Below, piece after piece: positions 2 through 19,274 of a DNA stretch of 34,919 nt. The translations under genes and the position numbers were made by a program. The notes under the pieces are model-generated. The model had not been told where the DNA came from. It saw only the letters and a program-made list of their open reading frames with translations, and searched no databases. Where the stretch lies: the NCBI GenBank assembly GCA_903887455.1, contig CAISPT010000151.1, forward strand, positions 1-34,919, in the 5' to 3' direction. The number at the start of each line of letters is the position of its first letter. Positions within the stretch are counted from its first letter, which is position 1. Source of the DNA: an uncultured Opitutaceae bacterium. Lineage in GTDB: Bacteria > Verrucomicrobiota > Verrucomicrobiia > Opitutales > Opitutaceae.

Positions 2-121
2 CTCAACGTCCCCGGGCACCGGGCGGAGGCCGCGGAGCATCTCGAGGCCTACCTTCGGGTTCGCCCGGCCAACGAGATGACCCAGCAGATCGCCTCTCAG
101 ATCCAGGGCTCCCCGCCATGA
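2..121 (+). CDS. C-terminus of a probable TPR-repeat protein (partial)
   Basis: An open frame enters from the left edge and ends at TGA 119-121, leaving 39 residues. The segment HRAEAAEHLEAYLRVRP has the spacing of small and large residues of a TPR helix pair, with the usual final proline, so this is probably the last repeat of a tetratricopeptide protein. The rest of the gene is outside the window and its partner or role cannot be told. It lies 112 bp upstream of the next gene on the same strand, so co-transcription is possible but unproven. Confidence 0.5.
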   Translation, partial: LNVPGHRAEAAEHLEAYLRVRPANEMTQQIASQIQGSPP

Positions 122-233
122 GGGTTGGGGCGTTATAGACACCCGGCCTCGTTGATATAGGGTGCGGTTCAGTCTGGCCGGACACGACCGATTTGCCATA
201 GTCCCGCGAAGCCCTCCAGAGAACCCGCGCAAT

Positions 234-1307: not shown

Positions 1308-1337
1308 TCCGCTACAGGGTCCGGCGCCCGGGAGCAT

Positions 1338-1817
1338 TCAAGGCCCCCTGGATATCCACCTCTCGAGGCAGGCGTGAAGGTCGGCCTTGCGCACGGGCTT
1401 GGCGATGAAGTCGTCCATGCCGGCGGCAATGCACTTCTTGCGGTCTCCCTCCATGGCATTGGCGGTCAGGGCGATGATAGGCAGGCGCCTCCCGTTCAGG
1501 CCCACGCGGATTCGCCGCGTGGCCTCGAACCCGTCCATTCCCGACATCTGGCAATCCATCAGCACCGCGTCCCAGGAGCCCGACAAAGCGGCGTCCACCG
1601 CCGAGGCCCCGTCAGCAACGATCACAGCGGAGAGCCCTAGGTTCCTCAGCAGGAGTTCGACCACACGCTGGTTCACCCGGTCATCCTCCACGACGAGGAG
1701 CCGGCCCAATAGCGTGGACGACCCGGCCGACGGTTGTGGACTCGCGGGCGGCTCGACCCCGGTCGGCAAGGTGACGGCAAACGAGAAGACGGATCCCTTT
1801 CCCTCCTCGCTCGTCAC
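1338..1817 (-). CDS. response-regulator receiver domain, C-terminal part of a frameshifted hybrid histidine kinase
   Basis: This 159-codon frame begins with [17 protein letters not shown], which is the end of a histidine kinase ATPase domain, followed by a linker and a complete CheY-like receiver. Visible receiver features are the acidic pair in VVEDD, the phospho-acceptor Asp at residue 88 in [11 protein letters not shown], the conserved Thr in ALTANAM and the Lys in AKPV. It cannot be a stand-alone regulator, because its first residues complete the domain that the upstream frame leaves unfinished. One added base in the C6 run at 1827-1832 joins the two frames. No output domain follows the receiver, so the intact protein would be a hybrid kinase relaying phosphate to a partner outside the window. 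Confidence 0.8.
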
Positions 1818-3103: not shown

Positions 3104-3346
3104 GGGGAGCGCCGGGACACGCGGGGTACCCGGGGAAATCTGCGGGCTTTACCCGGTTGGCGGAAGGCAATTCCAGACGGGTCTCACTTCGACTGCCGCG
3201 AGCAGAAGCGCCGTCTCTCCCGCGACGCAACCCAAAGCTCTACATAGAACCATGCGGGCCCCTACGCGCCGTTGCCCGCAACCAAGCTCCCTTGCAACAC
3301 AGGCCCGATCCCCAACAACCGGAAGGCCACAGGGATATCCCGGGTC

Positions 3347-3973
3347 CTACTCGAGGTCCCGCGTCCGCACCCAGTAATACGCGGACAGGCCCCCCTGGTA
3401 GAGGAGCGTGATGCCGCAGATGGCGGCTGCCACGATGAGGCGAATCCGGGCCGCCAGCGCAATCATCTCCGAATTTTGCTCCCCTGACTCGGTGATCAGC
3501 TCCGTGATTTCCGGGGAAAGCGGCTCCGGATGGAGGAGGCTATAGGCCGCGTAGGCCCACGCCGCGGCGATCAGGAGGATCTGGCTGCCCATGAGGCGCT
3601 GCCGCGATCCGGGAAGCCTGCCCGTGAACCGCCGAAGCCCATCGAGTTCCAGGCATCCGCACGCGGTCACCACAACGCCGATGAGGATCCCGACCGCACT
3701 GAACGAGAAGCAGGAGAGGAGGATGGAGGGAACCCCCATCACAAGAAGGCCATACCCGTCGAACTTCGCCATGCGCAGCGTCCGGGAGGGAGGGACCGGG
3801 CCCGAGGACGCCCCGGATGGGGCCCTCCCGGCCTGCGCGGACGCCAGCACCGCGGCCGCAGCCAGTTCGGAGGCGAGCTTCTTCGCCTCTTCCTCCGGCA
3901 CCCCGTGCCCCAGAAGCTCGGCGTACCGCTTCTTCCACACTTCAGCGTACTGCGTTGGGGGCTCCACGGGCAA
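3347..3973 (-). CDS. hypothetical membrane protein with a soluble N-terminal helix
   Basis: I do not recognise this 208-residue protein. The first 45 residues are charged and helical (EVWKKRYAELLGHGVPEEEA), followed by an Ala/Ser/Pro linker and about four hydrophobic segments near residues 74-93, 94-108, 128-147 and 177-200. A loop between the last two is rich in Glu and Ser. The reading frame gives TTG at 3973 or GTG at 3967 as possible starts; no clear Shine-Dalgarno sequence separates them. It lies 243 bp downstream of the kinase start on the same strand and faces away from the solute-binding protein gene. The 243-bp gap to the kinase (3104-3346) shows no gene that I can support. Confidence 0.6.
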   Translation of the reverse strand: MPVEPPTQYAEVWKKRYAELLGHGVPEEEAKKLASELAAAAVLASAQAGRAPSGASSGPVPPSRTLRMAKFDGYGLLVMGVPSILLSCFSFSAVGILIGVVVTACGCLELDGLRRFTGRLPGSRQRLMGSQILLIAAAWAYAAYSLLHPEPLSPEITELITESGEQNSEMIALAARIRLIVAAAICGITLLYQGGLSAYYWVRTRDLE

Positions 3974-4193
3974 GGCATGGCATAATATCGCGTGGCATCC
4001 AACTGCGATGAAACACCGTGGGCCCTTTTCCTAAGGGTTCGCTGCGCGGGTTTCCCGATTCACCGGATGACCGGCATCAAGTTGGCCCCAAATGAGCCGA
4101 TGTTCCCTGTTGGGTGCGGCCCGCGCTTCCTTGATGGACGAAACGCCCCGTTGCCTGCGTCCACCACGAACAATCCCAGCCCCCATTTTCAAC

Positions 4194-4898
4194 GTGTTCC
4201 CTAGAGCCCTAGCCAAACTCCCTCTTCTTGCCGGCCTCGCGCTGATCGGCACCGCCACCCTGGCGGCAGAGCCCATGCGCCTCGTGATCCCGGAATACGC
4301 CCCCTATACCTCCACCGCTGGCGGAAAGCCGCACGGCATCGGGGTCGACAAGGTGGTGCCGCTCCTTACCGCGCTCGGCATCGAATCCAAAATTTCCGGC
4401 GGAAGTTTCGGCGACGCCGTGACCGCCATCAAGGAGGGCCGTGCCGACGGTTTCTTCCTCGCCTCCCAGAACTCGGAACGGGATGCCGTCGCTATCCTGT
4501 TCGCCCCGATCGTCTTCAACAACTGGTTCTGGTACCTCGCCGCCGACTCCAAGCTCGATCCCAAAGGGGCGGACTTTAATCGCGCCACCATTGTCGGGAC
4601 AGTCAGCTTCTCGGCTCAGGCTGCCTGGCTCAACAAGAACGACTTCCATGTGCGGATTGTGCCCACCGCGGATTCCCTTCCCGGGATGCTGCTCGAGCAC
4701 AAGGGCATCAATTCGATTCTGGGGCCCGAGCTGGTCATCAATGACGCCATCGCCAAGGCGGGGCTCACCCCGGACAAGTTCCGGAGCGTCCTCGCCGATC
4801 GTAAGCCCTTCGGCCTCTACGTCGCGAAGACGTGGCTGAACGCCCATCCGGAGATGGCGGGAAAATTGAAGGCGGCCGTAGCGGCGCTAAATCCCTGA
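4194..4898 (+). CDS. periplasmic solute-binding protein, amino-acid-type (SBP_bac_3-like)
   Basis: The product resembles the family 3 periplasmic binding proteins: MRLVIPEYAPYT as first strand, GIGVDKVVPLLTALGIE as the helix after the first ligand loop, AVTAIKEGRADGFFLASQN as the second motif, and a hinge around NNWFWYLA. Starting at GTG 4194 gives 234 residues with a compact signal peptide (LPLLAGLALIGTATLAAEP). In-frame ATGs at 4134 and 4092 would add a Pro/Arg-rich extension before it and seem less likely, though no good ribosome-binding site supports any of the three. No permease or ATPase gene is adjacent, so the protein is an orphan here; it may serve a distant ABC transporter or act as a ligand-binding subunit for signalling. 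Confidence 0.75.
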   Translation: MFPRALAKLPLLAGLALIGTATLAAEPMRLVIPEYAPYTSTAGGKPHGIGVDKVVPLLTALGIESKISGGSFGDAVTAIKEGRADGFFLASQNSERDAVAILFAPIVFNNWFWYLAADSKLDPKGADFNRATIVGTVSFSAQAAWLNKNDFHVRIVPTADSLPGMLLEHKGINSILGPELVINDAIAKAGLTPDKFRSVLADRKPFGLYVAKTWLNAHPEMAGKLKAAVAALNP

Positions 4899-5016
4899 GA
4901 CCGGGTAACTGCGGACCGGCACCCCTTCCAGGGGCAAAGCTTAGGTGGGTCTTGCCCTGGCGGAACCCGCGACACCTCCCTTGAGTCCGGCGGTTGTTCG
5001 CGTCTGAATTCCCGCA

Positions 5017-5391
5017 ATGGATGACGCCCGACTCGACAAGCTGCTTTGGAGCCTTCGGATGTTCAAGACGCGTCCCTTGGCCGTCGCCGCCTGCCGCTCC
5101 GGTCACGTCCTCATCGGGGACCTGGAGGCCAAGCCCGGACGCCCGGTCCATCCCGGAGAGACCCTGGGCGTCCGCGTCGGCGGGGTGACCCGCACGCTCA
5201 GGATCCTGGCGATACCCCGCTCGCGGGTCAGCGCGAAGGAGCTGCCCGAGCTCATGACCGACCTGACCCCTCCCGCCGAGTACGCACGCGCCAAACAGGC
5301 CGCAATCGAGCACCAGCTCGCCCGCAAGCGGGGCATGGGCCGTCCCACGAAGAAGGAGCGCCGGGAGATCTCGGAGCTGTTCGGCCCCTGA
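5017..5391 (+). CDS. hslR: S4-domain RNA-binding protein, Hsp15 family
   Basis: The protein has 124 residues, close to the usual length of Hsp15. It starts with the S4 fold (RLDKLLWSLRMFKTRPLA, then AACRSGHVLIG and KPGRPVHPGETL) and ends in a basic tail (ARKRGMGRPTKKERREI), the same order as in Hsp15. In Escherichia coli, Hsp15 binds free 50S subunits that carry a stalled nascent chain and helps recycle them; a similar role in the cytoplasm is inferred. It is 118 bp downstream of the solute-binding protein gene and not obviously in an operon with it. Confidence 0.85.
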   Translation: MDDARLDKLLWSLRMFKTRPLAVAACRSGHVLIGDLEAKPGRPVHPGETLGVRVGGVTRTLRILAIPRSRVSAKELPELMTDLTPPAEYARAKQAAIEHQLARKRGMGRPTKKERREISELFGP

Positions 5392-5538
5392 TGGACCACA
5401 ATGAACGGACGCTGCTCACGGGCGGCTTTCCCCCTTCCCGAGCCAGGGAATGCCCCAAGGATAGCGACCCCCCGGCGCCAAAGCGGGCATTGCCAGAATC
5501 CGCGAGCACGCTACACCCTCCCCTCTCTTCAACTACCC

Positions 5539-6348
5539 ATGCTCGCCACTGCCGATCTCGCACCGGACCCCTCTGACACGCTAAAGATACGGATCTTCCG
5601 CTGGGCATGCCTCATCACGGCGGGCACGAGCTTTTTGCTCATGCTCCCCCTCTACCTGGTCCAGGTGCCGCACCGAAGCGGCACGATTGGAATCGTGGCA
5701 CTGGGCTTGGCGACGCTGGTCTGCTACTGGGCTTCGCTTCGCGGCAAGCAGCTCTTCCTCCTGTTTTTCCTGATCCTCCTGGCCAATATCGACCTCACCT
5801 GGACCATCGACTGCGGGGCCGAGGGCGGCCTGGCCTTCTACTGCCTGCCGATCCTCCTCTTCCCGCTCACGATGTACCGGGGGGCAGCCCGGTGGGCACT
5901 GGCGTCGCTGGTCGCCGTGAATCTCGTCGGGCTATTCCTTCTTGATAAGGCGGCGCCCGGCCTGTTGCTCCACTTCCCGTCACAAAGGGCGCAGCTGTTC
6001 GACCGGATAACGGGCGCTGTCTGCAGCCTGGTGATCACCGCGGCCATCATCCGGGTCATTCTGAAGAGCTACGATACCGAGCACCACGAGCTCGAGCAGG
6101 CCAGGAATGAGCTGCTCCTCAGGAACGCGGAGCTCCAAGACGCCCTGTCGAATGTTCGGCAGCTGAAAGGACTCCTTCCCATCTGCAGCGGGTGCAAGAA
6201 GATCCGCGACGACAAGAACTACTGGCACCAGGTGGATGCCTATATCTCCGAGCATACGGAAGCCACCTTCACCCACGGGTATTGCCCCACCTGTCTCGAA
6301 TCTTATTTCCCTGGGGCTGCAGGACGCGCACCCCAATCCCCAGCGTAG
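5539..6348 (+). CDS. membrane protein with coiled coil and C-terminal two-CxxC signalling module
   Basis: I chose ATG 5539 (269 residues); an in-frame ATG at 5401 would add 46 Pro/Arg-rich residues unlike a coding start. Residues about 15-175 form five or six hydrophobic helices. A coiled coil (residues about 180-210, ELEQARNELLLRNAELQDAL) leads to a short module with LLPICSGCKKIRDD, YWHQVDAYISEH and HGYCPTCLES. Its four cysteines at 216, 219, 249 and 252 form two CxxC pairs that could bind zinc. I recall this module at the C-terminus of many bacterial PAS, GAF and response-regulator proteins, where its job is unclear. No kinase, cyclase or other catalytic domain is present, so this is a sensor-like protein with only the module as output. 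Confidence 0.7.
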   Translation: MLATADLAPDPSDTLKIRIFRWACLITAGTSFLLMLPLYLVQVPHRSGTIGIVALGLATLVCYWASLRGKQLFLLFFLILLANIDLTWTIDCGAEGGLAFYCLPILLFPLTMYRGAARWALASLVAVNLVGLFLLDKAAPGLLLHFPSQRAQLFDRITGAVCSLVITAAIIRVILKSYDTEHHELEQARNELLLRNAELQDALSNVRQLKGLLPICSGCKKIRDDKNYWHQVDAYISEHTEATFTHGYCPTCLESYFPGAAGRAPQSPA

Positions 6349-6497
6349 CCGGTTTGGTCTGTTTCGGCGGCTGGCCTCAATAGCTATGGAGGTGCGATTT
6401 ACCCGTGCGTGAGCAAGAGGTTCACGCACGCGGGTTCACTTTAGTTAGACAATTTGCGTCCTTGCATGGTATGACCGCGCTGTCCCGCGCTAATCAT

Positions 6498-7139
6498 ATG
6501 AATTCCAGAGAGAAGGCTTACTTCGTGATCGGTGTTGCTGGAAGTTCCGGCTCCGGAAAGACCACGCTTGCCAGCAAGCTGGTCGCCGACTGCACCGCGA
6601 TCGGGATCACGGGACAGATCTTCTCTCTCGACAGCTATTACCGTCCGCTCGACCACATCAGTTTCGAGGAACGCAATGCCCGCAATTATGACCACCCGGA
6701 TTCCATCGACTCCGCGCTGGCCGTGAGCCAACTGCGCGAGCTTTGTGTCGGAAAGGCGATCCAGCAGCCGATCTATGATTTCAAGCTGCACACACGACGA
6801 AAGGAATTCGTTTCCTGCATCCCCACGCAAATGATCGTGGTCGAAGGTCTTTACGCGCTCTACTTCAAGGAGCTGCTGGACCTCTGTGATTTCAAGATCT
6901 TTGTCTCGACCGACATCGTGACGGCCATGCTGCGCCGCGTGCAGCGAGACATCTGCGAGCGCGGACGCGACATTGAGGGAATAAAGCACCAGATCCTGGC
7001 CACGGTCCTGCCGATGTTTGAGACCTATGTGAAGCCCACCCAGAGGAACGCCCATTTCTCAATCAATTGGGAGGGCGAGGAGATTCCGACCAAGGCCACG
7101 GAAGGCCTTGTGCGCATGATGCGCGATCACTTCCGCTAA
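6498..7139 (+). CDS. udk: uridine kinase
   Basis: Uridine/cytidine kinase phosphorylates uridine and cytidine with ATP or GTP in pyrimidine salvage. ATG 6498 gives 213 residues, the size of E. coli Udk; in-frame upstream starts at 6405 and 6471 would add residues unlike the family. Visible motifs are the P-loop GSSGSGKTT (residues 15-23), the substrate-binding FSLDSYYRPL, the helix NYDHPDSIDSALA, the IYDFKLHTR segment and the lid-region arginines in RRVQRDICERGRD. The start is preceded by about 150 bp without a gene. Base composition looks less GC-rich than in the neighbours, which may mean different codon use or an independent history. Confidence 0.92.
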   Translation: MNSREKAYFVIGVAGSSGSGKTTLASKLVADCTAIGITGQIFSLDSYYRPLDHISFEERNARNYDHPDSIDSALAVSQLRELCVGKAIQQPIYDFKLHTRRKEFVSCIPTQMIVVEGLYALYFKELLDLCDFKIFVSTDIVTAMLRRVQRDICERGRDIEGIKHQILATVLPMFETYVKPTQRNAHFSINWEGEEIPTKATEGLVRMMRDHFR

Positions 7140-7206
7140 AACACAGGCCGCCGAGGAGGCTCAACCCGCGTTGGGTCATCACCTCCGAGCAGAATCAACC
7201 CCATCC

Positions 7207-9897
7207 ATGTTCACGCGAATCCAACTATCGCTCCTTTTAGCGCTGACTTTCCTCCCCGGCCTATTCGCCGCTGATTTCGCCATGAGGGTGACGGACAAGA
7301 ACTACCTCGATACCCAAGGATTCAGCGTATTCCTCTACGACAGCAGGTACCATCCGGTCTTCGTGGACCAAAAGAACACGGCCATGGAGATGATCCTCCA
7401 TGGCCAACGGATTGCCACCAATGGCGATGTGCGCCTGATGCCAACCCCCGAGCAATGGGATCTGGTGGCCACCCTGAAGGGTCGCCACGCTGACAAGGAT
7501 AACAACAGGCTCACCGCGAACCTTGACTTCCCAACCTTCGATCTCAGCTACACCCTGGAGGTGGCCGCCGAACCCGGTGGCGTGAAGGTCAGCATCAACC
7601 TCGACAAGCCGCTGCCTCCCAAATTGGCCGGGCGGGCGGGCTTCAACCTGGAGTTTCTACCCTCGATCTACATGGGCAAGGCCTACCTCGTGGACGGGAC
7701 CCGGGCGGGCCTCTTTCCGAGAACGCCCGAGGACCCGATGGTCAAGGTGCTCCCCTTGCCCGACGAGCCGAAGAAAGCGTATTATCTCGAGGACTGGGAC
7801 AAGGCCAAAGGCTACACCGAGCCCCTGCCGTTTGCCGTCGGCAAGACGATCAGCCTCGGTGTCGACGACCCGCTGGCCAGGATCAGCGTCATTTCGGATA
7901 CGGCGGACCTAATGCTGTTCGACGGGAGGAGCCGCGCTCAGAACGGCTGGTTCGTTTTGCGCTCCCTGATACCCACCGGAAGGACCACGGGCGCCGTTGT
8001 CTGGCACATCAGGCCGGACGTGATACCGAACTGGACCCGGCCGCCGATGATCGCGCACAGCCAAGTCGGCTATGCTCCGGGCTTCTCCAAGGTGGCGGTA
8101 CTCGAGCTCGACCCAAAGTACAACGGGCCGAAGACCGCCAAGGTGCTCCGCCTCATGGAGGATGGCTCCTATAAGCCTGTGTTCGAAGGTCCGATCACGC
8201 CGTCAACTCCCTGGCTCCGGTACGTCTACTCGAAATTCGATTTCACCCCGGTCAATGACCCGGGCCTCTACGTCATCGACTACGCCGGCCAGCGCACGGC
8301 GACCTTTCCCATATCCAAGGACGTTTACGCCCACATCTGGCAGGCCAGCCTCGACCATCACCTCGCCGCGCAGATGGATCACGTTTCGGTCCGCGAGGCC
8401 TACCGCGTGTGGCACGGCCTCTCCCACATGGACGACGGCCGCCTCGCGCCGGTGGTGGGCGAACAATTCGACAACTGGAACCAGGCGACGGCAACCGACG
8501 GGAAGTACAAGGGCGGCGACCATATTCCCGGGATGAACGTGGGCGGCTGGTACGACGCCGGCGACTTCGACCTCGAGGAACCCGCTCAGCTCAGTGTCAT
8601 CCAGAGCCTGGCCCTGGCCTATCGGGAATTCGATCTCACCTACGACGAACTGACGGTCGACGAAGTCGCGCACGAGGTCGAGATGCACCGGCCCGACGGT
8701 GTGCCGGATACGGTGCAGCAGGTGAAACACGGCGCCCTGTATATCCTGGCGCAATTCCACAATATCGGGCACGCGATCCGGGGCACCCACGAGCCGGACC
8801 TACGCCAGTACACGCACCTGGGTGACGGAGCGTCGAAGACCGACGGACGCATCTACGACCCGTCGCTCGGGCCCAACGAGGTGAAAGGCGACTTCTCGGG
8901 CAAGCCGGACGACCGCTGGATCTTTACCTCCAACAACCCGTTCTTCCAGTGGAGTGCCATCGCGGCGCTGGCCGCGGCAGCCGACACGTTGAAAGGCTGG
9001 GACGATCCCTTGGCAAAGGACTGCCTTGAAACGGCGATCCAAGCGTGGAACGACGAAAAGACCCACCCCACAAAAGCCCCGACACGAAAGGGGCCCTTTG
9101 ACATGGAGGACCCGGAAGCCGGCTCAGGGGGAGGCGTCCTCGCCGCTTCGCAGGGTTCGCTGGGCAGACCGAATAGCCGGGGCGCAACGGCTGCAACCGC
9201 TGCTGCGGTGCCCCCCGCTCATCCCGCCGGTGTCGGCAGGGGATTCTTCGGCGTCGGAATCGATTGGCCTGCGGCCCTGGAGCTCACGATCGCGACAAAG
9301 GGCGCGGAGCCCTACAGGTCCCGCCTTAAGGAGTTGTTCCCCCAGGTGATCACGCCTGAGCAAATGGAGTTCCGGGGTTGGACCGCTGTCCGGGCGTTGC
9401 CGTACCTCGACGCGGGAGCAAAGGAGCAACTGCACGAAGCGGTGAAGACCTACATGGCAGCCCTGGACGCGAAGATGGGGGCGACACCGTTCGGCGTTCC
9501 CCCGAGCCTAAGGACCTGGGGCGGATCAGGCGCCGTCGTGGAGATGGCGATCCGAATGTACTTCCTGCACAAGACCTTCCCCGACCTGGTGGGCCCCGAG
9601 TACACCCTGCGCGCCGTGAACTACATCCTCGGCACGCACCCGGTATCCAGCACGTCGTATGTCGCCGGAGTGGGAACGGTCTCAAAGACGAAGACCTACA
9701 GCAACAACCGGGGTGACAACGCCTATATCCCCGGTGCTGTGATTCCCGGATATATCATCATAAAGCCTGATTTCCCCGAGTGCATCGACGATTTCGGATT
9801 TCTCTGGTTTGAGGACGAAGCCGTCGTGGCTGGGTCGGCAAGCTGGGTCGTTGCGGGCAACGCGGCCGACGCGCTAGTAAAAGAGGCAACCCCGTAA
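7207..9897 (+). CDS. secreted glycoside hydrolase family 9 endoglucanase
   Basis: The protein has 896 residues from ATG 7207, which begins directly with a signal peptide (MFTRIQLSLLLALTFLPGLFA). The first 270 residues are beta-rich and not recognised. Residues about 280-370 match the Ig-like domain that precedes many GH9 catalytic domains (MIAHSQVGYAPGFSKVAVLE). The GH9 (alpha/alpha)6 barrel follows, with the DAGD motif at 450-453 (catalytic base aspartates) and a C-terminal acidic cluster E869-D-E871 in GFLWFEDEAVV holding the likely proton donor. The family hydrolyses beta-1,4-glucans by inversion. Odd point: residues about 624-692 are a Gly/Ala/Pro/Ser-rich stretch inside the catalytic domain. 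It converges with the GH43-like gene, with 134 bp between that hold nothing evident. Confidence 0.9.
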   Translation: MFTRIQLSLLLALTFLPGLFAADFAMRVTDKNYLDTQGFSVFLYDSRYHPVFVDQKNTAMEMILHGQRIATNGDVRLMPTPEQWDLVATLKGRHADKDNNRLTANLDFPTFDLSYTLEVAAEPGGVKVSINLDKPLPPKLAGRAGFNLEFLPSIYMGKAYLVDGTRAGLFPRTPEDPMVKVLPLPDEPKKAYYLEDWDKAKGYTEPLPFAVGKTISLGVDDPLARISVISDTADLMLFDGRSRAQNGWFVLRSLIPTGRTTGAVVWHIRPDVIPNWTRPPMIAHSQVGYAPGFSKVAVLELDPKYNGPKTAKVLRLMEDGSYKPVFEGPITPSTPWLRYVYSKFDFTPVNDPGLYVIDYAGQRTATFPISKDVYAHIWQASLDHHLAAQMDHVSVREAYRVWHGLSHMDDGRLAPVVGEQFDNWNQATATDGKYKGGDHIPGMNVGGWYDAGDFDLEEPAQLSVIQSLALAYREFDLTYDELTVDEVAHEVEMHRPDGVPDTVQQVKHGALYILAQFHNIGHAIRGTHEPDLRQYTHLGDGASKTDGRIYDPSLGPNEVKGDFSGKPDDRWIFTSNNPFFQWSAIAALAAAADTLKGWDDPLAKDCLETAIQAWNDEKTHPTKAPTRKGPFDMEDPEAGSGGGVLAASQGSLGRPNSRGATAATAAAVPPAHPAGVGRGFFGVGIDWPAALELTIATKGAEPYRSRLKELFPQVITPEQMEFRGWTAVRALPYLDAGAKEQLHEAVKTYMAALDAKMGATPFGVPPSLRTWGGSGAVVEMAIRMYFLHKTFPDLVGPEYTLRAVNYILGTHPVSSTSYVAGVGTVSKTKTYSNNRGDNAYIPGAVIPGYIIIKPDFPECIDDFGFLWFEDEAVVAGSASWVVAGNAADALVKEATP

Positions 9898-10031
9898 CAC
9901 GGTCGATAGGGTCCTCCATAAGCCGTTAGCCACCGGCGGGACCGCTTAGGCCATAGTGCCCAGCCTGGCCGAAAGGTGTGGCGCAGGTTTTTGGCTACAA
10001 GCCCTCTCTCGGTGGCCATCCGCGGAGCCCC

Positions 10032-11246
10032 TCACTCTTTCAAATCAACATGCCAGTGGGCGACGACGGCTTGCAGTTCCTCCAAGGTGATTGGGGTCAC
10101 GGCGCCGTGCTTGGGGCGCACGAAGTTGGTTCCCTTCATCACGCCCTCGTTGAAACGGCCGAGATGGCGCCAGGTCACGAAATCTTCGGTCTCGCTAAAG
10201 CCCATGTTGTTCGGCCGGGCGCCGTAGACGTCGTACATGAGCACGTAACGGGAGGTGCCGAGCCGCTTGAAGATATTGGGCGCCTCGGTTGGAACCGTCT
10301 CCGGATCGATGCGCTCCGGCGTGCCCGTGTAACCGCTGGCGAAGGCCGCTGACCACGAGTGATGGATCTGAGCGTTGCTCACATAGAACATATGCCACCT
10401 TCCATCCACCAGCGTAAGATCGCCGTCGATGCCCCCGATGCCCGGGATCATCTTCGGCGGGGTCTCAAGCCGGGTAAAGGCCTCATTGGCATAGGACCAG
10501 TAGAGGTTGGCGTTCTTGTTGCCGTAGCGGATCGTGAAATAGACGACCATCCTGCCAGAGACCGGATCGTAGGTCGTCTCGGGTGCCCAGGCGCAGTCGA
10601 TGTCGCCGAGTTCCGGGAAGGCGGCATCCACGCGGAAGTCCGAGTGGGTCCAATGGACCAGGTCCCAGGATTTCATGAGCACCAGGGCCCGATTGTTGCC
10701 CCAGCCGTACTTTTCCTCGGGTCGCTGCCAGCGGGTGCTCCGAAATCCGGCGCGGTCGCCGAAGATATGGAGGTCCGTCATCACGAGGTAGAAGGCGCCG
10801 TCGGGTCCTCGCGCGATGTGCGGATCACGCACCCCCTTCTGCTCGGCAAGCTTTGCCCCGTCGAACACCGGATCGCCCCCGTTCACGTCGGTGAACGTAT
10901 ACCCGTCACGGCTGATGGCAAAATAGGCACAGTGCGTCTCATCCTTGAAATAGACCATCAGGTAGCCGCCATAGTCCTTCTCCTCAAGATGCCGGGCAAT
11001 CGCGGGTAGTTCGAGGGCGGAAACAAGCTCAATCCCGGTAGGCCGTCGCACCGCCGGGATAGGCCGTTGAGGGGCTCCCGATGGAGCGGCCGTTGAGGCA
11101 GGAATTTGCGCACCGGCCTGCCCAAACGCGCACAGAGCAATGAGGACGGCGACAACTCCTTTCACAAACCGGGACGCGGCAAAAGGGCGGAAGGAGGCCG
11201 AACCGGCATTGGGACCGAACAGACCCTGAACCGTATTCCGCTTCAT
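10032..11246 (-). CDS. secreted glycoside hydrolase, family 43-like
   Basis: The protein has 404 residues and looks like a five-bladed beta-propeller of the GH43 type (arabinanase/xylosidase group). Candidate catalytic residues in order are Asp141 in VRDPHIARGPDG, Glu223 in AWAPETTYD and Glu321 in TEAPNIFKR; the last best fits the general acid. Repeated SWDLVHWTHSDF and TEDFVTWRHLGRF segments are typical blade motifs. A signal peptide (VVAVLIALCAFGQAGA) follows a basic N-terminus. ATG 11246 is preceded by AGGGAGAGG seven bases upstream, a strong ribosome-binding site, and overlaps the TGA of the upstream esterase remnant (ATGA), so the two were translationally coupled. Substrate is likely a plant-type hemicellulose; the exact linkage cannot be read from sequence. 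Confidence 0.85.
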   Translation of the reverse strand: MKRNTVQGLFGPNAGSASFRPFAASRFVKGVVAVLIALCAFGQAGAQIPASTAAPSGAPQRPIPAVRRPTGIELVSALELPAIARHLEEKDYGGYLMVYFKDETHCAYFAISRDGYTFTDVNGGDPVFDGAKLAEQKGVRDPHIARGPDGAFYLVMTDLHIFGDRAGFRSTRWQRPEEKYGWGNNRALVLMKSWDLVHWTHSDFRVDAAFPELGDIDCAWAPETTYDPVSGRMVVYFTIRYGNKNANLYWSYANEAFTRLETPPKMIPGIGGIDGDLTLVDGRWHMFYVSNAQIHHSWSAAFASGYTGTPERIDPETVPTEAPNIFKRLGTSRYVLMYDVYGARPNNMGFSETEDFVTWRHLGRFNEGVMKGTNFVRPKHGAVTPITLEELQAVVAHWHVDLKE

Positions 11247-11509
11247 TTTGCCGCCTCTCCCTTCAGAAATTTGTTCACGTCGAGCCAATGGATGAAGACC
11301 GGAATCCAGCCATTGCTTGCCCGGTCCGGATAACCGAGGCCGAAGCCGTGGCCTCCGTTCTGGTAAAGATGAAATTCGACCGGACGACCGATGTCGAACC
11401 AGGACTTGACGACTCCGAACTGGCCTTGAAACAGGAAGTCATCCGTGGCGATGACGTTAAACATCGGCGAGGCGTCCTTCGGCCCGTCCACGGGACCCGT
11501 GCCGCCATA
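11243..11509 (-). pseudogene. 3' remnant of an alpha/beta-hydrolase (esterase) gene
   Basis: Only the last roughly 88 codons remain. The segments ASPMFNVIATDDFLF, VEFHLYQNGGHGFGL and WIPVFIHWLDVNKFL are the C-terminal third of a secreted alpha/beta-hydrolase of the dienelactone-hydrolase/acetyl-xylan-esterase type, with the catalytic Asp (ATDD) and His (GGHGF) but no nucleophile Ser motif. The frame can be read back in phase to YGGTGPVDG and then meets the TAA that ends the SmpA-like gene at 11510. The first two thirds of the hydrolase are absent from this window. A GTG at 11491 could still start an 82-residue product, but it could not be a working esterase. The remnant keeps its ATGA overlap with the GH43-like gene, so the two once formed an operon. 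Confidence 0.7.
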
Positions 11510-12193
11510 TTAGGGAACGGTGCCCTTGTAGCCCAGGTCAGCCAGCTGCTTCTCAGTTTGGCCGATGATCCGGTACAGCCGGTTGATCTCCAGCATCTCC
11601 TGCTCGGTCAGCTTCTTTTTCGGGAGCTTGTGATCGGCATAGAAGTACTTGGTCATCGAATTGAACTCCAGCTGCTTTCCGTCCCACATCACATCGGGCG
11701 GACCGTCCCTCCACAGGATATAGCCATGCGAGTCGTACGGTGTCTCCCGGGTCCTGCGCACGTCGACCGTATTGAAGTTCGGCCGGGTTGCACCGTCGTG
11801 GAAATAGAATTCCCAGAATTGTAGATTCGGGTCCTTGGGTACCGGCCTCACCTCCTGGTTAACGATCCTCTTTACCTTGGCTACCGCATCGTCCAATTGG
11901 GCGAGTAATCCCGAGATCTGCGGATCGCCGGACGTGGGTCTGGAGGTGTCCGGGCTTGCGACCTGGGGTGCCTTAACCGGCGAACCCACCACCTTGATTG
12001 AGACGACGACATCGTCCTTCAGCTTAATGACCGAATCGGGATACGTGAGCATCCGCATCGCACCCGCCTCCATTTGGCTCTTTGGATTACCCTTTTCAGT
12101 TAGCACCTGTTGATACGTGTCGCCAACGTTGGTGGCATACGCGCTCGCTGCCGACATGAGTATCAACACGAAAAGGTTTCGGAGGGAGCGCAT
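11510..12193 (-). CDS. secreted SmpA/OmlA-like hypothetical protein
   Basis: The protein has 227 residues from ATG 12193. A signal peptide (LRNLFVLILMSAASAYA) precedes a short domain, residues 22-70, whose VGDTYQQVLTEKGNPKSQ and LTYPDSVIKLKDDVVVSIKV resemble the small two-helix/beta-sheet SmpA/OmlA fold of periplasmic proteins. No lipobox cysteine is seen. The rest (residues about 85-227) is unrecognised, with a Trp/Asp-rich patch (GYILWRDGPPDVMWDG) and a charged C-terminal helix. Function unknown. Its stop codon abuts the esterase remnant in the same frame, which suggests that this gene arrived by the rearrangement that destroyed the esterase. Its codons are less GC-rich than those of the neighbours. 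Confidence 0.6.
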   Translation of the reverse strand: MRSLRNLFVLILMSAASAYATNVGDTYQQVLTEKGNPKSQMEAGAMRMLTYPDSVIKLKDDVVVSIKVVGSPVKAPQVASPDTSRPTSGDPQISGLLAQLDDAVAKVKRIVNQEVRPVPKDPNLQFWEFYFHDGATRPNFNTVDVRRTRETPYDSHGYILWRDGPPDVMWDGKQLEFNSMTKYFYADHKLPKKKLTEQEMLEINRLYRIIGQTEKQLADLGYKGTVP

Positions 12194-12530
12194 CAGCGTG
12201 AGAAATCAGATGTCATTTGGATGGTTCGGTAGCCGAAGTCGATCCCAGCATCTTGCCCCATAGCCCACCAGCATTACTGCCGCCTTCCGACAATTCAGAT
12301 GCATGAATTCACACATAGGCTCAAGTTTCCAGCAAACACCGTAGCATGATTTCGCCTCCCAGAACAGAACGGGCAGTACGCTAATTTGCGTATCAGCGAT
12401 CTACGAGAGATTTTACGGCTCCAACTTCGAATCAAAAAACAAACTTCCCGCTTTACCGCCTCCGGTTGGCAGCCCAGCTGAAGTCGGACTGCTATCCCAA
12501 CAGCTGTTATTCATTGTTACCTTACAATAA
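12194..12530. other. 337-bp non-coding region between the SmpA-like gene and tRNA-Leu
   Basis: No open frame here looks like a gene. The stretch is visibly more AT-rich than the surroundings, for instance at 12430-12450. A short perfect inverted repeat, TACGC-TAATTT-GCGTA, lies at 12377-12392. On the minus strand, downstream of the tRNA 3' end, a T-rich run at about 12433-12443 could end the tRNA transcript, but I see only a weak 4-bp stem before it. No duplicated tRNA 3' end was found by eye. Confidence 0.5.
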
Positions 12531-12616
12531 TGGTGCCCGAGGCGAGACTCGAACTCGCATGCTGTTAAGGCACAGGCTTCTGAGACCTGCGTGTCTACCA
12601 ATTCCACCACCCGGGC
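12531..12616 (-). tRNA. tRNA-Leu (anticodon CAG)
   Basis: The minus strand reads as an 86-nt class II tRNA with the CCA encoded. The acceptor stem pairs GCCCGGG with CTCGGGC. The D arm holds the AATTGGTAGA core. The anticodon stem CAGGT/GCCTG encloses the loop CTCAGAA, giving anticodon CAG for CUG codons. A long variable arm follows, as expected for leucine, and the T arm is GCGAG-TTCGAGT-CTCGC. Confidence 0.97.
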
Positions 12617-12641
12617 GCTGAACATAATCCCCTTCCCTTGA

Positions 12642-12665
12642 GCGTTTTCCGGATACCGGAAACGC
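12642..12665. repeat. inverted repeat upstream of tRNA-Leu
   Basis: GCGTTTTCCGG and CCGGAAACGC flank the three bases ATA, forming a ten-pair hairpin with one bulged T. It sits 25 bp upstream of the tRNA 5' end and about 200 bp upstream of the coiled-coil gene, in a divergent promoter region. It could be an operator or a transcript hairpin; no T-run follows on either strand, so a terminator is not favoured. Confidence 0.5.
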
Positions 12666-12868
12666 CAGGAAAGGAGAAAGAACCTCTTCTTCTAATTCCG
12701 CCCATCCAGCGGCGGGGGGTCATTACTACCCGCTAGCCAAAATCAACGGCAAGCAGAAATGGCGCGCCCCGGCCCCGGGCGCGGTTTTGAAACCCACTGG
12801 AATCGCTCGCCCTAAAAAGACGGCGTAATGTGGATTGTTTCCTTAGTCATTGCTGCTAAACGTACGCA

Positions 12869-15800
12869 ATGCCCTCGTCCGGACGCTCCACCCTGGCCCT
12901 TTTTGCGCTCAGCCTGGCGACCGCTGTCTTTGCCGCCGACCCCCTGCCCCCGGACCTCGCCGCACTCAAGGTCAAGGCCGAGAACGGGAACGCGATCGCA
13001 CAGTACAACCTGGGCCTCGCCTACGCGACGGGGAGCGGAGTGCCGCTGGACCAGGCCGAGGCGTACGTCTGGCTGACCCTGGCGAGCGAGCAGGGAAGCA
13101 CCGGCAAGGACATCGGTGTCCTGGTCTCCGGGATGAGCCCCGAGGTGCTCGCGGAGGGAAAAAGGCGCCTCGAGATGGAGCGCTCCCAGATCGCCGTCCC
13201 AGCGCCCGTCGCCAGCTCGATCACCTTTAACAATACGAGGCGGGAGATCGCCCCCTCGCCGAAGGAGGCTCCGGCCCCCGTGGCGCCAAAGCCTGCGCCG
13301 GAAGCCCAAGCCCCCGCTCCCACTGCCGACCCCGAGGTCGCGCAGCAGAAGGCGAAGATCAAGGAACTCCAGGACAAGGTCGCCCAGGATGCCTCGGTCA
13401 CCCAGCAGCTGACCCGCGAGCTCGACGAGCGGGGCCAGGCCCTCATGCAGGCGCTGGCGCAAATCAACGCCGTCAAAAACCTCCAGACGAGCCAGGATGA
13501 CGCCGCGGAGAAGGAACTCAACTCGACCCGCGCCGCGCTCGAGGCCTCGAAGCTCGCGCTCCAGGACGCCAAGGCGGACGCCGCTGCAAAGCTCGACGCC
13601 CTCCAGAAGAATGCCGACGCAAGCGCGGCCGAGGCGGAGCGCCTGAAGGCCACGGTCGCCCAGGACGAGGCAGCGCTCAAGGCCGCCGGCAGCTCGTCCG
13701 CCAGCACCCAGGCGTCGGTCGCCGACCTTTCGAAGGCCCGCGACGACCTTGCCGCCGCTCTAAAGAAGGCGGAGGCCGACAAGGCAGACCTCGCGACCCG
13801 CGCGGCGGGACTCGAGCAGGATCTCGCAAAGCGAACCGCGGAATCCGACAGGAATTTTAACCAGCTCGCCCAGGACGAGGCGGCGCTCAAGGCCGCGCAG
13901 GCGGCCGCAGCCAGGACCGACGCCCTCGCCGCGGAACTCTCCCAGGCAAAGAACGACCTCGCGGCTGCAACAGCGCAGCTCGCCGAGGCCACAAAGTCAG
14001 CGCAAGCCGCCTCCTCCGCCGCGGCGTCAGCCGCACCGAAGGACCGGCTGGACAGCCTCACTGCCGAGCTCGCGACGACCCGTCAGGCGCTGGCCGAGGC
14101 AAAAGCAGCCGCGATCAAGGAAAAGGAGGCCGAGGTGACCTGGTCCGCCTCACTCGAGAAGGAGCTCGCGGCCCAGACGGCCATGTCCAACGAGCTCAAG
14201 GACAAGCTCGCGGCGGCCAACGAGGCCCTGAAGGCAGCCGGCGACACTGGGGCCGGAGCCCGCAAGATCTCAGCGGACCTGGCAAGCGCCAAGGCTGACC
14301 TTGCCGCGGCGAGGGACCAATTGGTGCAGGCCCAGGCAGCCGAGGATCAATTGACGGCAAAGGTCCAGGCCCAGCAGGCGGCGCTCAAGGAGGCCTCCGG
14401 GCTCGGCCCAAAGGTCGACAAGCTGACGGCGGATCTCGCGGCTAGCCGGAAGGCCGTGGACAGCGCGTCCGAGGCCGTGGCGGCGTCCGAGCAGAAGGCG
14501 GCCCAGGCCTCCGAGAAGCTCGCCGCGGCGGAGCGCGACCTTGAAACGGCGAAGGCCCAGGTTGCCGGCGTACAGAAGGAGCGGGACAGTCTCGCGGCCA
14601 AACTTTCCGTCGACGACGCGGCGCTCAAGTCCGCGGGCGAGACGGGTTCCAAAGCCCAGGCGCTCGCGAACGAGCTTTCCCTGGCAAAGCGGGAGCTCGA
14701 GGCAGCAAAGGTTACCTCCCTTGCTGCTGTGAACGACGCCGCGGCCAAGTCCTCGGCTCTTTCCAAGGCGGAAAGCGACCTCAAGGCCTCGGAAGACAAA
14801 CTGGCCTCGCTCGCCAAGGACCGTGACGCCCTCGCCGCACGACTCGCGGCTGACGAGACCGCGCTCACGGCAGCGACGGGCGACGCTTCAGCGAAGGTCA
14901 AGATGCTCTCCGACCAGCTCGCCGCCGCGCAGAAGGATCTCGAAGCCGAGAAGGCGGCCTCGGAGGCGATCTCGAAGGTCAGTAACGCGAAGGGCCTCGC
15001 TCTGAAGCACATGGCCGGCGACCTAGAATCCGCCCAGGAGTCGCTTGCCGCGGTCCAGAAGGACCGGGACGCGCTCCTGGCAAAGCTCACGTCCGACGAG
15101 GCCGCGCTCAAGGTTGCGGGGGATTCCGGTCCGAAGGTCCAGGAACTCTCGGCGAGCCTGGCCGCGGCGAAGAAGGACCTCGAGGCCCAGAAGGCCTTGA
15201 CCGCTTCGGCGGCGCAGGATGCCTCCGCCAAGGCCGCCGCGTTCACCCAGGCCTCCTCCGAGCTCAAGGCCGCACAGGCCGACCTTGCCGCGGCACAGAA
15301 GGACCACGACTCGCTCATTGCCCGGATCAACGACCGCGAGGCCGCGCTCAAGGCCGCGGGCTCCACCGGCGACAAAGCCGCGGCGCTCGCCGCCAACCTC
15401 GAGGCCGCGCGCGCGGATATCGACTCCCTGCGCACCCAGGCGGCCGCCGCCTCGAAGGACGCCGACGCGAAGGCAGCGGCGCTCGCCAAGGCGACAACTG
15501 ACCTGAAGGACGCCCAGGAAAGGCTCGCATCGACCGTGAAAGAAAAGGACGCCCTCCTGGCCGACCAGGAGTCGGCGCTAAAGACCGCGGGCGCCGCCGG
15601 GGAGCGGGCGGAGGCCCTGGCCCGACAGCTTGAGGCCACACAGAGGGACCTCGCCGCGGCCAAGGCCGCGGAGGAGTCCGCGAGCCGCGACGCGGCCGCG
15701 AAGGCGTCCGCGCTCACGGAGGCCCACAAGGCGGCCGACGCCTCAGGCGCGCAGGTGCTTTCCCTCGAGAAGGACCTGGCTGACCGCACGGCGGAGACCG

Positions 15801-17269
15801 TGGATTTGAAGAACAAGCTCTCGGTCGCCCTTGCCGGGACGCGAGCCTCCGGCGAGAGCGGCGCGCAGGTGCAGGCCGTGAAGGCCGAGCTCGCGCGCGT
15901 CCAGGCTGATTTGGACGACGTGAAGTCCCGGCTCGCCCAGGCGACCGCGGAGGCGGCCGCCGCCAAGGGGGCCGCCCAGACGGCGAACCTCACCAAGGCC
16001 GAGAATACAGTCCTTAAGGCGGAGCTCGCGAAGGCAAAGGCCGACCTCGACTCGACGCGCGGGCAGTTGGCCCAGGCGGCGGCGGAGGCCTCAGCCGCAA
16101 AGTCCGCCGCCGAGACGGCGGGCCAGCTCAAGTCCGAGAACGCCTCTCTTAAGGAGAAGCTCGCTTCGGCAAGCACCTCTCTGCAGTCGGCTGGAGACAC
16201 CGGGACGCAGGTCGAGGCGCTTAAGGCCCAACTGTCCAAGGCGACAGAGGACGCCGCATCTGCCAAGGCCGCCAACCTCGCCCTCTCGGATCGCCTCGCC
16301 AAGGCCGAGGACGCCGAGAAGGCGCTCCAGGCCTCCGTCCAGAAGAATGCGGGAGATGCGGCGGCGAAGGCCAGGGCCCTCTCCTCCGAACTTGAGCGCA
16401 CGAAGGGCGCACTCGACGTGGCCCATGCGGAGCTCGCCCTCGCCAAGAATTCCACGAACGATCGGGTGACTGACGCCCAGAAGGCCGCCGACGCTGCGAA
16501 GGCGGACGCCGCGGCCAAGACCGCGGCCATGGAGCAGCAGCTTTCCGAGGCCAGGGCCCGGGACGAGGCGCTCACCTCGGACCTCGCTTCCGCAAAGAAG
16601 GACCTCGAGTCGGCCCGCCTGGCGCTCAGTGGAACCAAGGAGTCGGCCGCCGGCACGGCGACTGCGCTCGACCAGGCGAAGGCCGAGGGCGAGGCGCTGA
16701 AGGGCCAATTGGCCCAGGCCAAGTCCGACACCGAGTCCCTCCGCGCAAAGCTCGCGGCGGACGAGGAGGCGCTTAAGGGCGCCGGAGATTCGTTCGCAAA
16801 GACCCAGGCCCTTGCCGCGGAGCTCGCGCAGGCGAAGGGCGACCTCGCCGCGACGCAGTCCCAGCTGGCCGATGCGCTGAAACTCGCCTCGACCGCGAAG
16901 CAGCAGGCCGAGGACCACGGCCTCGACCGGGACAGCCTCCAGAAGCAGGTGGCCGACCTCTCGGCGAAGCTCGCGGCCTCGCAGGCCGCGACCGCCTCTC
17001 TCCAGGAGGAGAACACGCGCCTTAGGCGCTCGTCCCCGCTCAGGCCCGCGACGGCGCTCGCGGCGCAGGCCATCGCGGCCGCGGCCCCCACCCCGGTGCC
17101 GACCCCGGTGCCCAGGACCTACACGGTCGCCGACGGCGACACGCTGACAAAGATCTCGCTCCGGTACTACGGCACCTCGTCCAAGTGGATCACGATCTAC
17201 CAGGCGAACCGCGACAAGCTGCCGAACGAGAGCGTCCTCTCGATCGGGACGGTGCTCCGGATCCCGTAG
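12869..17269 (+). CDS. giant secreted coiled-coil protein with Sel1-like N-terminus and C-terminal LysM
   Basis: The protein has 1466 residues. A signal peptide (STLALFALSLATAVFA) is followed by one Sel1/TPR-like segment (AENGNAIAQYNLGLAYATG, residues about 37-75), a Pro/Ala-rich linker (130-160), and about 1200 residues of Ala/Lys/Glu/Asp-rich coiled coil. The rod contains repeats of about 80 residues that start with DEAALKAAG-like motifs. After a Pro-rich hinge (PTPVPTPVPRTY) comes a LysM domain, residues 1416-1466 (YTVADGDTLTKISLRYYG), which should bind peptidoglycan. The product is therefore likely a wall-anchored envelope rod. It looks monocistronic; the next gene is convergent, with four bases between the stops. 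A role in envelope structure or spacing is inference; no homologue with known function is recognised. Confidence 0.85.
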   Translation: MPSSGRSTLALFALSLATAVFAADPLPPDLAALKVKAENGNAIAQYNLGLAYATGSGVPLDQAEAYVWLTLASEQGSTGKDIGVLVSGMSPEVLAEGKRRLEMERSQIAVPAPVASSITFNNTRREIAPSPKEAPAPVAPKPAPEAQAPAPTADPEVAQQKAKIKELQDKVAQDASVTQQLTRELDERGQALMQALAQINAVKNLQTSQDDAAEKELNSTRAALEASKLALQDAKADAAAKLDALQKNADASAAEAERLKATVAQDEAALKAAGSSSASTQASVADLSKARDDLAAALKKAEADKADLATRAAGLEQDLAKRTAESDRNFNQLAQDEAALKAAQAAAARTDALAAELSQAKNDLAAATAQLAEATKSAQAASSAAASAAPKDRLDSLTAELATTRQALAEAKAAAIKEKEAEVTWSASLEKELAAQTAMSNELKDKLAAANEALKAAGDTGAGARKISADLASAKADLAAARDQLVQAQAAEDQLTAKVQAQQAALKEASGLGPKVDKLTADLAASRKAVDSASEAVAASEQKAAQASEKLAAAERDLETAKAQVAGVQKERDSLAAKLSVDDAALKSAGETGSKAQALANELSLAKRELEAAKVTSLAAVNDAAAKSSALSKAESDLKASEDKLASLAKDRDALAARLAADETALTAATGDASAKVKMLSDQLAAAQKDLEAEKAASEAISKVSNAKGLALKHMAGDLESAQESLAAVQKDRDALLAKLTSDEAALKVAGDSGPKVQELSASLAAAKKDLEAQKALTASAAQDASAKAAAFTQASSELKAAQADLAAAQKDHDSLIARINDREAALKAAGSTGDKAAALAANLEAARADIDSLRTQAAAASKDADAKAAALAKATTDLKDAQERLASTVKEKDALLADQESALKTAGAAGERAEALARQLEATQRDLAAAKAAEESASRDAAAKASALTEAHKAADASGAQVLSLEKDLADRTAETVDLKNKLSVALAGTRASGESGAQVQAVKAELARVQADLDDVKSRLAQATAEAAAAKGAAQTANLTKAENTVLKAELAKAKADLDSTRGQLAQAAAEASAAKSAAETAGQLKSENASLKEKLASASTSLQSAGDTGTQVEALKAQLSKATEDAASAKAANLALSDRLAKAEDAEKALQASVQKNAGDAAAKARALSSELERTKGALDVAHAELALAKNSTNDRVTDAQKAADAAKADAAAKTAAMEQQLSEARARDEALTSDLASAKKDLESARLALSGTKESAAGTATALDQAKAEGEALKGQLAQAKSDTESLRAKLAADEEALKGAGDSFAKTQALAAELAQAKGDLAATQSQLADALKLASTAKQQAEDHGLDRDSLQKQVADLSAKLAASQAATASLQEENTRLRRSSPLRPATALAAQAIAAAAPTPVPTPVPRTYTVADGDTLTKISLRYYGTSSKWITIYQANRDKLPNESVLSIGTVLRIP
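14612..15565 (+). repeat. best-preserved 80-residue coiled-coil repeats in the LysM protein gene
   Basis: Four consecutive units begin at codons 582, 662, 743 and 823 (bases 14612, 14852, 15095, 15335), with lengths of 80, 81, 80 and 77 residues. Each begins with a motif such as DDAALKSAGETG or DEAALKVAGDSG and shares ALAxxLxxAxxDL and KDRDALxAxL segments. More diverged copies of the same motif occur on both sides, for example at residues near 264 and 1305. The nucleotide sequences have drifted, so this is an old protein-level duplication. Confidence 0.8.
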
Positions 17270-17273
17270 GCCC

Positions 17274-18035
17274 CTAAGCCGGGGGCCCCGGGAGGAAGTC
17301 GGCGATGTTCGGGATCTCGTGGACCCGGCGGCCGCCGTTCCGGCGCTCGAGGTAGAAGTCCTCCTCGGGCTTCATCGGTGACTCGTCGCCGTCCTCGATC
17401 TCGTCCTCGTCCTCCTCCTCGTCCTCGTCGACCACCCACTCCTGCTCGTCGAAGACGTGCGACATGCGCCGGGCCACGGGGGCCAGCACCAGGGCCGGGT
17501 TCTTCACCTTTCCGTCCTTCACGAACTCGAAGAGGCAGGGGTAGAACTTGTCCTCAAACTTGGCCCTGAAGTCCCCCATCCACTTGTTGGAGACACCGTC
17601 CCTCCGGTTGAGGAGGACGACGTCCGAGTAGAAGATGCAGGCCTCGTACCAGGCGAAGAGCTTGGGGTGGGCCTCCGCGAGCTGGCAGTTCACGATGCAG
17701 AGGACCCGCGCCACCTCGGTCACCCGGTCCGAGAGGAAGGACTTCCATCCCTCGATCTGGTCCACGGGGTTGTGGCGGCCGTCAAAGAGGATGAAGACAT
17801 GGGTGGCGTCCGGGGGGAGCTGGGCGTCCACGGCGTTGTCGGGGCCGAGCGTCCAGCGGAGGAGCGCCGGGAAGGAGGCGTCCCGGGGATCCGGGGCCTC
17901 CTGGCCGGAGAACAGGAACGCGGGCCTGTCGCCCTCGGCGAGGCCCTCGACCAGATCGGACAACACCTCCCTGCGCCCGGAGCCGGCGGCCCCGAGCACC
18001 AGGTAGACCCGGGGTTTGTCGTCCGCGTCGCTCAG
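17274..18035 (-). CDS. P-loop GTPase-like protein of unknown function, probable CTG start
   Basis: From CTG 18035 the product has 253 residues. ATG/GTG choices are poor: GTG 17999 would cut away the first beta strand (PRVYLVLG) of the nucleotide-binding fold. The CTG overlaps the aroC stop as CTGA, the geometry usual for coupled genes. The P-loop GAAGSGRRE lacks the Walker A Lys and Ser/Thr, so nucleotide binding is doubtful. Later segments ([36 protein letters not shown]) look like the switch and base-recognition strands of SIMIBI-class (CobW-like) GTPases. Residues about 205-235 are a long Asp/Glu tail. Function unknown; the assignment to that superfamily is tentative. Confidence 0.6.
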
Positions 18036-19126
18036 AAGGTGAAGGTCTTGTTCTGCGCGGCGTTGCGCATCCAGTGGTCGAGGAGCACCAAAGCCGCCAT
18101 GGCCTCGACGATCGGGACGGCGCGCGGGAGGACGCAGGGGTCGTGGCGGCCCCTGCCGGTGAGTTCGGTCGCGGCACCGGAGGAGTCGACCGTCGCCTGG
18201 GGAATCATGATCGTGGCGGTGGGCTTGAAGGCCACGCTGAAGACGATCTCCTCGCCGTTCGAGATCCCGCCCTGGACGCCGCCGGAGCGGTTGGTCGCGG
18301 TCCCCACTCCGCCTGCCTTGGGCACAAAGGCGTCGTTGTGCTCTGAGCCGAGGAGGAGCGTCCCCTGGAAGCCGCTTCCGATCTCGAAGCCCTTGGTGGC
18401 CGGCAGGGAAAGCATCGCCTTTGCGAGGTCGGCCTCCAGCCGGTCGAAGACGGGTTCACCGAGGCCCGCGGGCACCCCGCGGATCCGGCAGGTCACGATC
18501 CCGCCGACCGAGTCGCCCTTCGAGCGCACATCCTCGATCCGGGCGATCATGGCGGCCGCGGTCTCGGGGTCCGGGCAGCGGACGGGGTTTGCCTCAATCT
18601 CGGCGAGACTCGGGAAGGCCTTCGGGGTCCCCGGGGGGAGCGCCAGGTCCTGGACCCGGGACACGTAGGCCCGGATCTCGATCGCCTGGGAGGAGAGGAT
18701 CTTCTTTGCCACGGCGGCCGCGGCCACGCGGCCCACGGTTTCCCGCGCCGAACTCCGGCCGCCGCCCCGGTGGTCCCGGATCCCGTACTTCATCTGGTAG
18801 GCGAAATCGGCGTGGGAGGGCCGGAACTTGTCCCGCATCTCGTCGTAGGCCCCGGGCCTCTGGTCGGAGTTCCTGACAAGGAGCGAGATCGGGGCCCCGG
18901 TCGTCCGGCCCTCGAAGACCCCGGAGAGGATCTCGACCAGGTCCTTCTCCTTCCGGGGGGTGACGATCGAGCTCTGGCCGGGCCTCCTGCGGTCCAGGTC
19001 CCCCTGGATGTCCCCTTCCGAAAGCGGCAGCCCCGGGGGGCACCCGTCGATCACGACCCCCACGGCGGCCCCGTGACTCTCGCCCCAGGTGGTGATGGTG
19101 AAGAGCTTTCCGAACGTGTTGGGCAT
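18032..19126 (-). CDS. aroC: chorismate synthase
   Basis: AroC converts 5-enolpyruvylshikimate-3-phosphate to chorismate, the last shikimate-pathway step, using reduced FMN. The 364-residue length and motifs fit: [53 protein letters not shown]-like region (AVAKKIL), [11 protein letters not shown] and [20 protein letters not shown] 19126 begins the standard [15 protein letters not shown]; an upstream in-frame start at 19192 would add a non-conserved tail. The gene is divergent from gspD across 148 bp and its stop overlaps the start of the P-loop-like gene. Confidence 0.96.
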
Positions 19127-19137
19127 CGCGCCTTGGG

Positions 19138-19235
19138 AAGGTTGCCCCCGAAAAGGGACCCCGCAAGCGGCAAATCTAGGCGATAGAGGCAACCTTTGCC
19201 CCGGGAGGGCGTCATAACAGCACGCCCTTTACAAT
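19138..19235. promoter_or_regulatory. aroC/gspD divergent control region with two inverted repeats
   Basis: Two structures are visible in this 148-bp spacer. AAGGTTGCC (19138-19146) and its exact complement GGCAACCTT (19188-19196) are 41 bp apart. AGGGCGT (19206-19212) and ACGCCCT (19222-19228) form a 7-bp hairpin with a 9-base loop, and a TACAAT hexamer (19230-19235) follows, a possible -10 element for gspD. No good -35 hexamer is seen at 17 bp, so activation by a bound protein at the repeats is possible. Confidence 0.3.
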
Positions 19236-19274
19236 GGTGGCGCTTTGCCCCCTAATCCGCATTCCCGAATCTGC

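Follow-up and report, generated by a model that had tools for sequence, protein, structure and literature searches.

The window, by which we mean the whole 34,919-nucleotide stretch analysed here, is the entire contig G000:C151 of a metagenome-assembled genome of an uncultured Opitutaceae bacterium (3.34 Mb, 376 contigs, 93.5% complete), and the evidence on the junction described below comes from this one assembled contig. It was compared with 12 other genomes of the genus (13 including its own). The locus is named in none of the titles found in the literature. The following features are used in the analysis.

5017 to 5391, plus strand: S4-domain gene, presumably Hsp15-like; far flank of a candidate integration slot, as suggested by two relatives
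5401 to 6348, plus strand: open reading frame of 315 codons between the S4 and kinase genes, with no Pfam or NCBIfam match at E 0.01
6405 to 7139, plus strand: uridine-kinase-like gene
7171 to 9897, plus strand: GH9 cellulase-like gene, inside the stretch from the S4 gene to tRNA-Leu
10032 to 11246, minus strand: intact GH43-like glycosidase gene, its ATG overlapping the TGA of the remnant (ATGA)
11243 to 11509, minus strand: 3' remnant of an alpha/beta-hydrolase (esterase) gene, an apparent pseudogene of 88 codons plus TGA
11510 to 12193, minus strand: intact SmpA-like gene, 227 amino acids, its TAA (11510-11512) abutting the remnant
12194 to 12530, no strand: 337-nt stretch from the SmpA-like gene to the tRNA, GC 0.487, with no sizeable gene
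12531 to 12616, minus strand: tRNA-Leu(CAG), near flank of the candidate slot
12869 to 17269, plus strand: Sel1/LysM protein gene, which adjoins the tRNA in five of ten genus loci
18032 to 19192, minus strand: chorismate synthase gene (aroC), the anchor for the tRNA-Leu site in relatives

Read on the minus strand from 12193, a single frame runs through the 227 codons of the SmpA-like gene, its TAA, 88 open codons and a TGA (11243-11245). The remnant that follows the TAA starts at YGGTGPVDGPKDASP, with the Y of a YGG motif as its first codon; intact homologues read KLAFIGPIYGGMGPVEVPKDAPP at this place, only one P before the Y has a counterpart in the window, and the protein search alignment reaches two columns before the Y, the TAA being one of them. 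A search of 149 other genomes of the family gave 19 matches in 18 genomes (E ≤5e-32, 58-74% identity), followed by a next best match at E 3.8e-11; judged by these alignments, the likeness of the remnant to its homologues is far above chance, and the remnant alone matches no Pfam family. Eleven homologue frames were read and measure 300 to 388 codons from stop to stop, ten of them with the full N-terminal part. The frame of G034:C11 (L081, through 9174-9437) is without the conserved N-terminal part and is a possible second case of damage to an esterase gene; G034 has another esterase match, on C19.

The nearest intact copy is a 318-residue esterase in a relative from the genus (G151), 79% identical to the remnant over 87 of its 88 residues and adjoined on its contig by two other hydrolase genes. 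Measured against it, the remnant amounts to 28% (88 of 318 residues), a little under the third given in the first-pass annotation, which was otherwise right that a truncated esterase stands in frame directly after the SmpA-like TAA. It had also described the upstream part as gone, and we found no second copy of that part in the assembled genome, where the only matches are paralogues at E 3.6e-14 or weaker. G151 is the one genome among the 12 others of the genus that carries this close type of esterase, intact, and the best esterase relatives in the remaining genus genomes reach 34-37% identity by protein search. The junction itself was seen in none of the 12, among the matches listed and by protein search; the scan for it scored 23 candidates per genome in all but one genome, and the absence leans also on the protein search. 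This supports a lineage-specific truncation.

We used invariant alignment columns to follow constraint on the remnant; dN/dS was dropped, since synonymous sites were near saturation and some pairs could not be computed. Fifteen homologues, with the G034:C11 frame retained among them, have 43 invariant columns in the first 84 common to them. The remnant breaks five of these 43; in a leave-one-out comparison, every homologue breaks zero or one. In a tree, the end branch of the remnant is 0.32 against a median of 0.056; G151 is nearest to it by path, and it falls in no well-supported group. In a control on the adjoining GH43 gene, which took in 12 of 15 fetched loci, the gene in the window breaks one of 167 invariant columns and the 12 homologues break 0-6 of 167-173. 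Columns, branch and control together point to a loss of constraint specific to the remnant and to a break that is not brand new. With both truncation (88 of 318 codons) and relaxed constraint, the remnant looks like a decaying pseudogene.

The gene in front of the remnant is complete, which supports the first-pass annotation. Its closest homologue (G072:C74) ends GYNAPVQ-stop and the protein in the window ends GYKGTVP-stop at the same place, and among six further aligned homologues, five stop no more than a few residues away and one has a longer tail. Because the homologues end at or near the same point, the gene most likely ends at its original TAA, which would place the break on or just behind that codon. 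Resemblance to SmpA/BamE is predicted for the N-terminal part, from a structural model with a mean pLDDT of 86.6 and a pTM of 0.61. VIA-align placed residues 13-69 of this model on BamE chains (Z up to 6.5) and residues 11-69 on OsmE (Z 6.7), with a Staphylococcus aureus secretory protein as the top row (Z 6.8) and BLIP-type chains at Z up to 5.7; the BamE rows are tied with unrelated rows and score too low to exclude a common arrangement. The best Foldseek row was BamE at E 0.18, with no match at E 0.001. Solved structures searched with a profile of the SmpA-like family yielded no match at E 1, and at E 0.01 none of 17 family members matched a Pfam-A or NCBIfam model. A hydrophobic start, judged by eye, suggests that the protein is exported. 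The C-terminal domain, at about residues 90-220 (IVNQPV...ELEFNSMTKYFYTDRSxPKKKLTExEMLEINRLYRIIG), is conserved (L185, L186, L187, L194, L195, L198) and is found with different N-termini in Verrucomicrobia and in some records titled Alphaproteobacteria. The SmpA-like family is multicopy, with three copies in the window's own genome and more in the genus.

On the other side of the junction, close relatives of the GH43 gene occur in 18 of 251 other genomes of the family and in none of the 12 other genomes of the genus, where one weak match (E 1e-5) was found. Fifteen GH43 loci from these 18 genomes were examined. An esterase lies in the same stretch (up to 20 kb) in six of them, once directly adjacent but with the GH43 gene first, and in G003 at a distance of 13.7 kb. 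An intact esterase directly upstream of GH43, the arrangement that the first-pass annotation had suggested seeking in relatives, is present in 0 of the 15; the two genes are thus linked in some relatives, but not in that exact order. In G144:C6 (L080), a 608-residue frame at 6807-8630 has an Abhydrolase_6 domain joined to a GH43-like enzyme and stands directly before the esterase. In the window, a ribosome-binding-like sequence precedes the GH43 ATG.

Third-position GC (GC3) is 0.755 in the uridine kinase gene, 0.804 in GH9, 0.758 in GH43, 0.716 in the remnant and 0.746 in the SmpA-like gene, against 0.87-0.96 in the five genes measured right of the tRNA. The lower GC reported earlier is therefore real, but it is not confined to 11510-12530, since values of 0.72-0.80 run from the kinase through the SmpA-like gene; nor is the idea supported that only 11510-12530 is a newcomer, since the GH9/GH43 side shares its slot and is no less foreign. 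By composition and distribution, the DNA on either side of the junction looks foreign to this place. GC3 is also low left of the S4 gene (0.777 at 4092-4898) and in one of the two SmpA-like paralogues of the same genome (0.726), and the borders of the block can therefore not be set by composition.

The 3' end of tRNA-Leu(CAG), at 12531, faces the SmpA-like gene and the block behind it. To see what lies at this site in relatives we used aroC, which is present in 11 of the 13 genus genomes, the window's own included; ten other aroC loci were fetched. tRNA-Leu(CAG) is found in eight of these ten, and the order aroC, homologue of the gene at 17274, Sel1/LysM gene, tRNA-Leu in five. By eye, the 60 nt behind the tRNA 3' end in six readable relatives differ from the window and from each other. 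A tyrosine recombinase gene lies 76 nt from tRNA-Leu in G131 and abuts it in G148, and G151 has a MobA/MobL gene less than 5 kb past it.

Two relatives carry a second piece of this tRNA at the S4 gene. In G151, a 54-nt fragment of the tRNA-Leu 3' end (94%) lies 118 nt behind the S4-domain gene, and beyond it (L133, G151:C68 1-5401) are a piece of an N-6 DNA methylase gene and an AAA ATPase gene (AAA_15, AAA_21); judged by these domains, the island in G151 may carry defence genes. In G072, a degenerate 34-nt fragment lies 83 nt behind the S4 gene, with a uridine-kinase homologue beyond it as seen from that gene. None of 500 mononucleotide shuffles scored as high as either fragment in the expected orientation, whereas behind the S4 gene no fragment is found in the window (453 of 500 shuffles as high), G150 (451) or G114 (174). 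The two ends of the slot lie on separate contigs in both G151 and G072. Most simply read, these sequences make the S4 gene and tRNA-Leu the opposite borders of a single integration slot. Because the relatives' fragments sit just behind the S4 gene, the slot in the window is taken as 5392-12530; it contains the kinase, GH9 and GH43 genes, the remnant and the SmpA-like gene. A conserved stretch at 4980-5390 had been considered as a possible RNA; it proved to be the S4-domain gene, and Rfam gave only the tRNA in 1-20000.

In G153, a homologue of window positions 231-1307, which lie outside the slot as taken here, is found 2.4 kb behind the tRNA 3' end, and the S4 gene is absent from that 5.6-kb contig; the left border may thus, in some species, lie elsewhere or have been rearranged. 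At tRNA-Leu, two G153 contigs share an overlap of exactly 141 bases (L131, G153:C78 5439-5579, and the end of L101, G153:C3). One of them ends precisely where the tRNA 3' end does, the pattern of a fork in an assembly graph; the fork may mean that the site is occupied in only part of the population.

The first-pass annotation had pointed to tRNA-Leu as a common integration site and suggested a search for a duplicate of its 3' end in the flanks. For the relatives, the integrase genes and 3' fragments bear out the first point, but a search of the window, of the sequence behind the S4 gene and of the rest of the same genome gave no duplicate (three or fewer mismatches in 26 nt). A Pfam scan found no integrase among the six main open reading frames of 5392-12530. 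With no duplicate found and no integrase among these frames, the status of the window's own block as an island rests on the relatives.

Taken together, the evidence makes the locus a probable tRNA-Leu island, now eroded, within which illegitimate recombination, such as a deletion, has left an esterase gene's tail downstream of a complete gene. Approximately 5392-12530 would be the island, lying between the S4-domain gene and tRNA-Leu(CAG), and it would have lost its attachment site and integrase. Illegitimate recombination, most simply a deletion, would have joined the end of the SmpA-like gene to the middle of the esterase gene at 11509/11510, removing the first ~229 esterase codons and whatever lay between. 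Transcription initiated upstream of the SmpA-like gene may now continue into GH43.

It is improbable, in our view, that the SmpA-like gene and the stretch upstream of it (11510-12530) are instead a small separate insertion into the esterase, with the glycoside hydrolase block older at this place. The multicopy nature of the SmpA-like family would suit such an insertion, as would the nine scanned loci with other copies (L068-L076), which contain no tRNA, so that tRNA-Leu is not the gene's usual neighbour. Yet after an insertion the missing 5' part of the esterase would be expected on the tRNA side of the SmpA-like gene or at another place, and a search did not find it; GC3 is similar on either side of the junction, nothing in the block is more foreign to the genus than GH43, and no tRNA duplicate was found in the own genome.

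We give as little credence to the stronger reading that the deletion fused two transcription units and put GH43 under the promoter of the SmpA-like gene, a promoter capture that selection has maintained. A scan of 9800-12700 gave no promoter-like sites (1.1 in shuffles) and two terminator-like sites (2.3 in shuffles), both on the minus strand inside the remnant and no more numerous than in shuffled sequence; if real, they would stop read-through into GH43.

We also doubt that the junction is a chimera produced in assembly. It lies on one contig of a 376-contig metagenome-assembled genome and was seen in no other genome of the genus among the matches listed, which would suit a chimera. However, the contig joins the S4 gene and tRNA-Leu, flanks indicated independently by the G151 and G072 fragments, which is unexpected of a random chimera, and the remnant is a diverged copy rather than a clean piece of an intact gene. 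Least credible is a functional arrangement, with the piece behind the TAA serving as a read-through extension or a small coupled protein: it offers one frame of 88 codons without a stop and an ATGA overlap with GH43, but one in three junctions is in frame by chance, no relative was found with the same arrangement, conserved residues of the family are broken, and the first ~229 residues are missing.

The eroded-island reading makes the broken esterase a case of ordinary gene decay and not a new system. What the locus adds is an indication that, in this Opitutaceae genus, tRNA-Leu(CAG) serves as an integration slot, and that one genome has plant-polysaccharide genes beside it.

Among known protein families, the G151 esterase, 79% identical to the remnant over the C-terminal 87 residues, matches Abhydrolase_3 and BD-FAE; the nearest NCBIfam name for esterases of this type is acetylxylan esterase AxeA1, at 72 bits against a cut-off of 700; compared with esterases of these families, the window keeps the last 88 codons only. 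The likeness of the SmpA-like protein to the SmpA/OmlA (BamE) domain concerns its N-terminal domain in the predicted model, whereas, unlike the BamE lipoprotein, it has no cysteine for a lipid anchor and has an additional C-terminal part with no Pfam or NCBIfam match. The closest known system for the locus as a whole is the tRNA-associated genomic island of tyrosine recombinases. The block in the window differs from such islands in having no integrase in its main open reading frames and no tRNA duplicate, which would make it at most an eroded one; it resembles them in adjoining the tRNA 3' end directly, in its sporadic presence and in its deviating composition. Relatives in the genus resemble such islands in having genes for integrases or mobility proteins past the tRNA-Leu(CAG) 3' end, tRNA 3' fragments at a far border and a content that varies between genomes.
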